A stretch of DNA of 37,759 nucleotides from a virus. The notes beneath the pieces are model-generated. The model searched no databases and was not told where the DNA came from. It worked only from the letters and a program-made list of their open reading frames with translations. The DNA lies in IMG/VR virus record IMGVR_UViG_3300022540_000168, positions 1 to 37,759 of that record; one strand, given 5' to 3'. The translations under genes were made by a program, and so were the position numbers. Positions 1-37,759 of this stretch are shown in pieces (position 1 is the stretch's first letter; each line of letters opens with the position of its first letter).

Positions 1-886
1 ACAGGGGGATTCCCATGCCAACCATATAGTCAAGCAGGCAAAAGAAAGGGCAAAGAAGACGAGAGACATCTCTGGCCAGAAATGCTTAGAGCAATTCGAG
101 AAATTCAACCGAGCTTCGTTGTGGGCGAAAATGTTTATGGACTCGTTAATTGGAACGGGGGGGGTGGTATTCGACGAAGTGCAATCTGACTTGGAAAATG
201 AAGGCTACGAAGTCCAACCGGTTATACTTCCAGCTTGTAGCACGAATGCGCCCCATAGAAGAGATCGAGTCTGGTTTGTTGCAAACTCCAAGCACAATGG
301 AAATATCAGAGAGTCCAGAGCAAATGAGAAAGCGGGCCAAAAAGAACAAATACAAGAATGGAACAAAGTACAACGGATTAAAAAGTCAGTTAGACCACGA
401 CCCGAAATGGAGTCACTTATTACCGACACCGACAACACAGGAAGCGGAAAGCGATTGCGAACTAACGGAGACAGGACGGAGGAAAACGAAGGACGGAAAG
501 GACAGCCACAGCCTGAATTTGGGAAGGATGTCAAAAATGGGGATGTTACCGACACCAAGAGCAGCAGCAAGAGGGAATTGCAGCAACGACAGAAAGAAGG
601 GAAATCTGGAGGACAAAATAGCGGAAATAATGTTGCCAACACCACAGGCAGCGGACGGATTCAAGACAACAAGCAACAGCAACCAAGAGAATTTGAACAT
701 GCTTGCACCGGTTGGGAGCAATTCCCAACTCAATCCCCAATTTGTATCAGAAATGATGGGATTTCCGACAGATTGGACGGAATTACCTTTCCAAAGTGGA
801 GAAGTGAATCTATAAAAGGATATGGCAATGCGATAGTTCCACAGGTAGCATTAGAGATTTTTAAAGCATTAGAACAAACAATATGA
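1..886 (+). CDS. C5-cytosine DNA methyltransferase, C-terminal part, interrupted by a +1 shift in a G tract
   Basis: Continuation of the gene that starts at 37539 and crosses the contig ends. Positions 1-156 encode GGFPCQ (motif IV, catalytic Cys) and [11 protein letters not shown] (motif VI, ENV). At the G8 run 157-164 this frame runs into TGA at 187-189. One G fewer joins it to the frame that is open to 886, which carries [10 protein letters not shown] (motif VIII) and, near the end, [15 protein letters not shown] (motif X). The repaired protein would be about 360 residues, usual for a phage Dcm-type enzyme. The region between motifs VIII and X, where target recognition normally lies, is polar and repetitive with DTDNTG/VANTTG-like blocks. 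GC is about 49% at 481-660 against 22% at 1081-1140, so it may be imported. It probably methylates cytosine to protect phage DNA from host restriction. Enzyme family certain; expression state depends on the G tract. Confidence 0.9.
2..23. repeat. Terminal direct repeat, left copy
   Basis: Bases 2-23 are identical to 37738-37759 (22 bp). The base before differs: A at position 1, G at 37737. The repeat lies in the methyltransferase PCQ motif, and the reading frame is continuous across the joined ends. This fits assembly overlap of a circular or terminally redundant genome rather than a biological repeat within a linear molecule. Confidence 0.85.
150..815 (+). CDS. Alternative-frame ORF overprinted on the methyltransferase (LPTP-repeat protein)
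   Basis: A 221-codon frame opens just after a TAA at 147-149 (a TTG at 150 is the first possible start) and lies entirely within the methyltransferase. It has internal order: four spaced blocks LLQTPST, LLPTPTT, MLPTPRA and MLPTPQA (starting near 276, 417, 543 and 630), and a C-terminal block [21 protein letters not shown]-like in content, split here as [12 protein letters not shown] and DWTELPF. Each LPTP block lies over a (T/A)DT- or VAN-type block of the canonical frame. It could be reached as a fusion to the methyltransferase N-terminus if the G tract were 6 or 9 long. From memory, LPTP-rich proteins of this kind recur in phage and metagenomic data, which would argue for real coding; I cannot check that here. 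It may instead be a compositional shadow. Confidence 0.45.
157..164 (+). repeat. G8 homopolymer tract inside the methyltransferase gene
   Basis: Eight consecutive G between the codons for VNWN and VVFDEV. With 7 G (or 10, 4) the upstream methyltransferase frame enters the canonical C-terminal frame ending at 886. With 6 or 9 G it enters the alternative frame ending at 815. With 8 G it stops at 189. Such tracts vary by slipped-strand mispairing in phase-variable genes, and they are also a common site of sequencing error. The sequence alone cannot separate these explanations. Confidence 0.85.
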
Positions 887-37296: not shown

Positions 37297-37542
37297 ATGA
37301 AACTTGGCGAAATAGTATATTGCAACCTCCATTTATCCACAATAAAAGATAAAAGGAAACCAAAAAAACCTATTGAAAAGGTAATCATAAAAGAAGTGGT
37401 TTTTGCTTATCCTTATTCTGGAGCAATTAAAGTTCTAAAAGAGGGGCATACATTATTACAAAGAAATAGGATAAAAGTAGACATGAACATTGATCGAGTG
37501 GAAATAATAAAGAGATTGGGATTTAAAAACAAAGGACAATGA
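37297..37542 (+). CDS. Small basic hypothetical protein
   Basis: 81 residues, basic, beta-like start (MKLGEIVYCNLHLSTIKDKR), IKEVVFAYPYSGAIKVLKEG in the middle. Its stop overlaps the methyltransferase start (ATGA at 37539-37542), placing it in one operon with the methyltransferases. No family recognised. Confidence 0.65.
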   Translation: MKLGEIVYCNLHLSTIKDKRKPKKPIEKVIIKEVVFAYPYSGAIKVLKEGHTLLQRNRIKVDMNIDRVEIIKRLGFKNKGQ

Positions 37543-37759
37543 GGCACGGATCGTTATTTTCTGGAATAGGTGGTTTTGATTTAGCAGCTCAATGGATGGG
37601 TTGGTCTAATGAGTTTCATTGTGAATGGAATGATTTTGGACAAAAGATTTTAAAGTATTATTGGCCTAAAGCAATAAGTTATGAAGACATCACAAAAACA
37701 GATTTCACTATTTGGCGAGGAAAAATTGACATTCTCGCAGGGGGATTCCCATGCCAACC
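37539..37759 (+). CDS. C5-cytosine DNA methyltransferase, N-terminal part (runs off the window end)
   Basis: 73 codons from ATG 37539 to the window end. SLFSGIGGFDLAAQWMGW (residues 5-22) is motif I, the AdoMet site. WNDFGQKIL is in the place of motif II/III, and DILAGGFPCQ (residues 64-73) is motif IV with the catalytic Cys72. The frame continues directly at window position 22 if the ends are joined, which supports circularity. At window position 1 the codon is ACA (Thr) where this end has GCA (Ala). The rest of the enzyme is described at 1-886. Confidence 0.95.
   Translation, partial: MRHGSLFSGIGGFDLAAQWMGWSNEFHCEWNDFGQKILKYYWPKAISYEDITKTDFTIWRGKIDILAGGFPCQ
37738..37759. repeat. Terminal direct repeat, right copy
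   Basis: Identical to bases 2-23 over 22 bp; see the left copy. The base before (G at 37737) differs from position 1 (A). Most simply an assembly overlap of a circular map. Confidence 0.85.

Follow-up and report, generated by a model that had tools for sequence, protein, structure and literature searches.

Lee, Kam and Shaw reportedly found in 1995 that the β gene of the EcoHK31I methyltransferase lies in another frame inside its α gene, and we know of no G tract in that system. M.EcoHK31I (target YGGCCR) is made as two polypeptides, a small one that bears motif IX and a large one that bears motifs I–VIII and X and to which the predicted target recognition domain is assigned (PMC3404938). The same account presents M.AquI (CYCGRG) as a naturally split C5 methyltransferase (PMC3404938); its small subunit contains motif IX, motif X and one half of the variable region. 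In poly-G phase-variable bacterial methyltransferases, such as those of Helicobacter pylori, tract length sets the reading frame (PMC12003011), and hypermutable poly-G tracts have been described in Campylobacter phage genes (PMC8540345, citing a 2021 report). A two-polypeptide C5 methyltransferase (PMC3404938), poly-G switching of bacterial methylases (PMC12003011) and poly-G switching in Campylobacter phages (PMC8540345) are each known in kind. In the open-licence literature, we found no description of a second gene that overlaps a phage C5 methyltransferase gene, nor of a switch placed in dual-coding DNA so that both subunits are broken by it.

The stretch of DNA analysed here (the window) is a viral record of 37,759 bases with 33% G+C, identified as a phage by gene matches to terminase, portal, major head and DnaB-like helicase. 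Its last 22 bases (37738–37759) are repeated directly at 2–23 on the plus strand, which, judged from the letters, is the mark of closed or terminally redundant phage genome ends. Because the record ends overlap, a methylase gene on the plus strand, here called α, begins with ATG 37539 and spans the record end. Its first part (37539–37759) matches phrog_363, TIGR00675 and, from position 1, an α profile built from relatives; it continues in frame 1 over 2–156, with the PCQ and ENV motifs and matches to PF00145, phrog_363 and the α profile. The C-terminal part lies in frame 2 at 161–886 (stop at 884–886), matches PF00145, phrog_363 and positions 118–341 of the α profile, and carries motif VIII (HRRDR) and motif X (GNAIVP). 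PF00145 therefore matches both halves, and this Dcm-type similarity, together with PCQ, ENV, RxR and motif X, identifies α as a C5-cytosine DNA methyltransferase. Between the halves lies the G8 tract at 157–164, GGGGGGGG, the sole G/C run longer than 6 in the window. As the initial annotation had read directly, the frame entering the tract stops at 189 (the α stop, as written, is at 187–189), and frames 2 and 3 remain open to 886 and 815, respectively. The gene immediately downstream (883–1236) matches only positions 210–320 of the 458 in phrog_799, a DNA methyltransferase family, and for that reason looks truncated.

The long frame 3 had been taken for an alternative methylase tail. We tried this as its primary role and rejected it, since frame 2, upstream of the tract, supplies its N-terminal half and relatives keep both frames intact; the frame is instead the C-terminal part of a second gene, here called β. 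From a probable start at ATG 37681, the first part of β (37681–37759, plus strand, +1 relative to α) covers positions 1–73 of a β profile, likewise built from relatives. It continues to the tract over 2–156 in frame 2, overlapping α, with matches to the β profile and to phrog_1008 positions 44–88 (E 0.014), and resumes in frame 3 at 162–815 (stop at 813–815), where it matches phrog_1008 positions 94–283 (E 7e-18) and β profile positions 71–300. This C-terminal part contains LPTP repeats and a motif-IX-like stretch of 17 residues. When the profiles were run on the joined region, the α profile extended from 1 to the tract and then over 118–341 one base on (jump at 155–163), and the β profile covered 1–73 and then 71–300 with a one-base step (jump at 156–163). 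Both therefore step at the tract and in the same direction, as two overlapping genes would that are broken together by one surplus G: in the window, the tract at 157–164 (plus strand, covered by both frames) is one base out of phase for α and β alike.

Relatives were collected by searching viral contigs with frame 3 of the window, and the best 80 of 297 were kept. Among these, α crosses the tract site without a shift in 80/80, and β is open over 234–375 codons in 78/80, the exceptions (L069 and L070) having one stop in β; the third frame is full of stops. Since the third positions of α are the second positions of β codons, fourfold sites of α report on β. Across 51 α sequences (1275 pairs), fourfold third-position differences amount to 58–60% before β (α codons 1–40), fall to 19% at codons 111–130 and to 5.6% at codons 236–255, the motif-IX region, and return to 53% after the end of β (codons 277–290). 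Such conservation is the sequence signature of selection on β. When 16 α genes were shuffled among synonymous codons, the observed length of the +1 open reading frame was met in 0/1000 shuffles for 15 of them and in 1/1000 for the other. An ATG lies 27–47 codons ahead of a conserved cysteine motif in 55 of 56 β sequences, the remaining one being cut by the contig end. The nested β frame recurs in phages of Bacteroides, Paenibacillus, Lactobacillus, Escherichia, Acinetobacter, Mycobacterium and Synechococcus, the records of which list one gene or two separate genes; isolates sometimes have the pair annotated as two overlapping genes, as in Paenibacillus phage Tadhana and in Escherichia phage K1G, with its 'Mte8-like' gene.

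Some results sit less comfortably with this account. Outside the motif-IX region, the ABMM1 and K1G groups show a weaker and uneven third-base constraint, which counts against our main explanation: the dip reaches 0.045 at codons 251–275 in the former, with values up to 0.62 elsewhere inside the +1 open reading frame, and 0.25 in the motif-IX region of the latter, with values up to 0.68 elsewhere. Modelled alone, β gave no confident fold (pLDDT 54, pTM 0.22); its profile matched no PDB sequence up to E 10, and β yielded nothing over the cut-off against Pfam and NCBIfam.

The distribution of motif IX between the two frames is complementary. A motif-IX pattern, written as a regular expression, was scanned in the α, +1 and +2 frames of four sets: the β-query set and three fetched with α queries (K1G α, ABMM1 α and genome loci). 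It occurs in the +1 open reading frame in 77/80, 77/80, 76/80 and 72/80 of these sets, respectively, and in frame in α in 0/80, 0/80, 1/80 and 3/80. In streptococcal-type enzymes, the pattern is found in frame in 64/79 and in the +1 open reading frame in 0/79. The best β match to monomeric enzymes aligns the two motif-IX stretches (16 residues against LTPRECWRLQGFPDW) in a weak profile match (E 0.06), and a broader mixed β alignment gave no meaningful match to monomeric-enzyme profiles. The streptococcal-type enzymes were rejected as an unqualified negative control, since a +1 open reading frame of about 140–200 codons is present there as well, with reduced third-base change (0.22–0.43 over most of the frame, compared with 0.62–0.69 downstream), so that this set controls for motif IX only and not for the absence of an overlapping frame. 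In these enzymes with in-frame motif IX (L256–L334), the +1 frame ends in (C)SLSDILEExVDEKYFLS, and that of one member has a family of its own, phrog_16143, and matches phrog_1008 weakly. A staggered split is seen in Mycobacterium phage Rifter (L088): the first gene ends after motif VIII, and the second, overlapping +1 gene holds a motif-IX-like stretch and a motif-X-like end, an arrangement nearer that of M.AquI.

The second gene lies in another frame of the first, as is reported for M.EcoHK31I, which is a bacterial restriction-modification enzyme, unlike the phage gene described here. Poly-G phase variation in Campylobacter phages concerns receptor-binding proteins, unlike the methyltransferase and dual-coding DNA of this locus. 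The division of motifs may also resemble that of M.EcoHK31I, with α lacking motif IX and β carrying a motif-IX-like stretch, a likeness of layout from which we infer that α and β may pair as the M.EcoHK31I polypeptides do. The α of one relative (L082) models as the large domain of M.HhaI (164 columns, E 8e-14 for the best match); residues 166–261, at the place of the small domain in an ordinary enzyme, are predicted to be unfolded. In this respect the locus would differ from M.EcoHK31I, the predicted target-recognition part of which is placed on the large polypeptide (PMC3404938), whereas the matching part of α is the one that models as unfolded. M.AquI is similarly a C5 methyltransferase in two polypeptides (PMC3404938), but motif X, which sits on its small subunit, stays in α here. 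The phrog_363/phrog_1008 pairs of Tadhana and K1G share the nested layout, the nested gene there matching phrog_1008; their records state no relation between the two genes, and, unlike the window, the parts of these pairs that were looked at contain no G run of at least 7. As in the Helicobacter pylori methyltransferases (PMC12003011), the frame is set by the length of a G tract inside a methylase gene, but those are bacterial genes with a single coding frame, whereas the tract described here is shared by two overlapping genes of a phage.

We favour, with somewhat better than even confidence, the view that a phage C5 methyltransferase is coded twice over, that α and β pair, and that the G tract acts as an on/off switch of the whole enzyme. 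In this model, α would provide the catalytic domain, with motifs I–VIII and X, from one frame, and β (phrog_1008), presumed to be translated, would provide the motif-IX-like segment from the +1 frame, between about α codon 48 and a point shortly before the α end. Both products would assemble into the enzyme, in analogy to the M.EcoHK31I polypeptides. A tract length in phase would leave both subunits whole. One G more would cut α short and run the N-terminal part of β into the C-terminal part of α, the state of the window, and one G fewer would run the N-terminal part of α into the C-terminal part of β. Because the tract is long and variable in a group of relatives, it is probably a slipped-strand on/off switch for the whole enzyme.

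The homologous site was readable in 77 of the best 80 loci of the β-query family; its longest G run measures 3 in 64 of them, 2 in three, 4 in three, 5 in three, 6 in two and 10 in two. Homologues without the tract and with varied codons, which the initial annotation had named as a refuting result, make up most of this set (the 64 loci with 3 G at most), and the two with G10 depart from it. Scans for a long G run at the site yielded 17 contigs and, with a wider pattern of at least 7 G, 52 including those 17, all with G7–G12 at exactly the tract site and none being the window itself. Judged by the α frame on both sides of the tract, 36 keep the phase, 13 fall in minus one and 2 share the plus-one state of the window, the remaining contig being without upstream sequence. 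After removal of one of each near-identical pair, 45 lineages remained: 33 in phase, 9 minus one, 2 plus one and 1 unscored. The in-phase share (33/44) exceeds one third (p 2e-8, for rows that are not independent), which would be expected of a favoured in-phase state from which departures are short-lived or tolerated. In the minus-one phase, which corresponds to the 6 or 9 G of the initial annotation, the N-terminal part of α enters the β frame, and five such contigs are open to the β stop. All 15 out-of-phase contigs have their half-frames open (in two, the contig end truncates the upstream part) and retain motif X, and 13 of the 15 retain the motif-IX pattern.

Length differences separate very similar sequences. 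A plus-one G11 (L466) and two in-phase G10 tracts (L452 and L460) are flanked by DNA with 3 mismatches in 300 bases upstream and 0 in 150 downstream; G12 and G11 (L449 and L451) differ by 1 mismatch in 45 upstream and 0 in 150 downstream, and G10 and G11 (L441 and L463) by 1 in 104 and 1 in 150. A tree of 70 rows, of which 44 are scored and 26 have no tract, requires at least 10 changes of phase state. Tract length agrees in 7/7 near-identical contig pairs (at least 99.6% identity), four of them out of phase (L426/L427, L432/L435, L448/L467 and L438/L443), which speaks against random miscounts, with the caveat that some datasets may share a sample; as none of the seven differs in length, there is also no sign that the switching rate is high. 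Outside the methylase, the 52 tract contigs hold 3 G/C runs of at least 9 in 353 kb at 34% G+C. In the relatives, then, a coding region contains a repeat tract that varies in length among closely related sequences and shifts the frame accordingly, as is looked for in contingency genes. It is probable that tract length does switch at this site within the family, with effect on both subunits; such switching may be reversible.

Further tracts were encountered in related contigs. Four ABMM1-type contigs (L415–L418, the same as L193, L246 and L231 plus one more) have a second G-tract site at about α codon 26, with G12, G15, G15 and G11 in one shared flank; in L231 (G11), the α frame before this tract is not continued in the rest. 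A poly-C tract of 8, 8, 9 and 10 lies in the leader of L017, L019, L028 and L041, about 10 bases before the α ATG, and is possibly a length-variable control element. Three contigs (L443, L444 and L460) carry additional G tracts (G11, G12 and G9) 3.5–3.9 kb downstream of the methylase tract, in L460 inside a 245-codon open reading frame and in L443 at the start of a 209-codon one.

For the window itself, the strongest alternative is that the eighth G arose as an error in sequencing or assembly, or comes from a minority read, and that the phage has 7 G and makes α and β; we rate this not far short of an even chance. It is in keeping with the unshifted α of all 80 closest relatives (best 80 of 297), most of which lack the long tract, and with the otherwise undamaged state of both genes. 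On the tree, moreover, the window methylase groups with relatives without a long tract, and a relative with G7 (L440) is in phase; that the relatives on the window's branch mostly lack such a tract also counts against our main explanation. Against an error stands the behaviour of the site elsewhere, where out-of-phase lengths are common (15 of 51 scored contigs) and reproducible between near-identical contigs. No second copy of the window phage with another tract length was found. The eighth G may be natural or an error; the way the site behaves in relatives inclines us slightly towards a natural one.

The tract might do more than turn the enzyme on and off. In a three-way arrangement, which we regard as unlikely, the in-phase state would give the two-subunit enzyme, minus one a fusion of the N-terminal part of α with the C-terminal part of β that has a function of its own (a new specificity, an inhibitor or a non-methylating binder), and plus one neither subunit; if this were true, a single slip would reset both enzyme partners and make a third protein. 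Somewhat less probable still is that slippage on the G run, by RNA polymerase or the ribosome, yields α, β and the fusion from one DNA length, with changes in the DNA being secondary. Slippage can arise at long homopolymers, as is generally known, and out-of-phase lineages persist with every half-frame open, both of which suit that idea. It fits poorly with the relatives, most of which have no tract and keep both frames intact, so that slippage is unneeded, and with the preference for in-phase lengths in 33 of 44 lineages. Slippage at long homopolymers is the subject of a review (PMC5009743).

The initial annotation had proposed that tract length selects among three C-termini. That length varies and sets the following frame was borne out, all three phases being present among the 52 contigs (36, 13 and 2); the second frame as an alternative tail was not. 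In its full form, with a choice between working enzymes that differ in their C-termini, the proposal appears distinctly improbable. The minus-one state, in which the open reading frame extends to the β stop, does occur in 13 of 51 scored contigs and outnumbers plus one (9 versus 2 lineages, p 0.065), but the resulting fusion lacks motifs VIII and X and the β N-terminus, and β stands as its own gene in tract-less relatives. A fixed one-base insertion that killed the gene and left a pseudogene would account for the broken frames as written, yet we consider it very improbable: apart from the tract, the window and 15/15 out-of-phase contigs have all four half-frames open, motif X is retained throughout the latter, and no decay is visible. 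Least credible of all is that the +1 frame is not a gene and stays open through α codon usage only: it is long over motifs IV–VIII in streptococcal-type enzymes as well, but third-base constraint is confined within the β limits with both flanks relaxed, synonymous shuffles rarely reach its length (at most 1/1000), the motif-IX pattern is placed complementarily (in frame or in +1), and β is annotated separately in isolates.

Before a one-base change at sites of this kind is called a pseudogene or an alternative tail, its effect on both frames should accordingly be examined. The nested β frame, the tract aside, provides a large natural collection in which the evolution of two proteins within shared DNA can be studied. 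If the two-subunit switch that we favour is right, a slipped-strand event in doubly coding DNA would turn off both subunits of a modification enzyme at once. The phage population would then contain genomes with and without the mark and so be hedged against both kinds of host, those that cut marked DNA and those that cut unmarked DNA.
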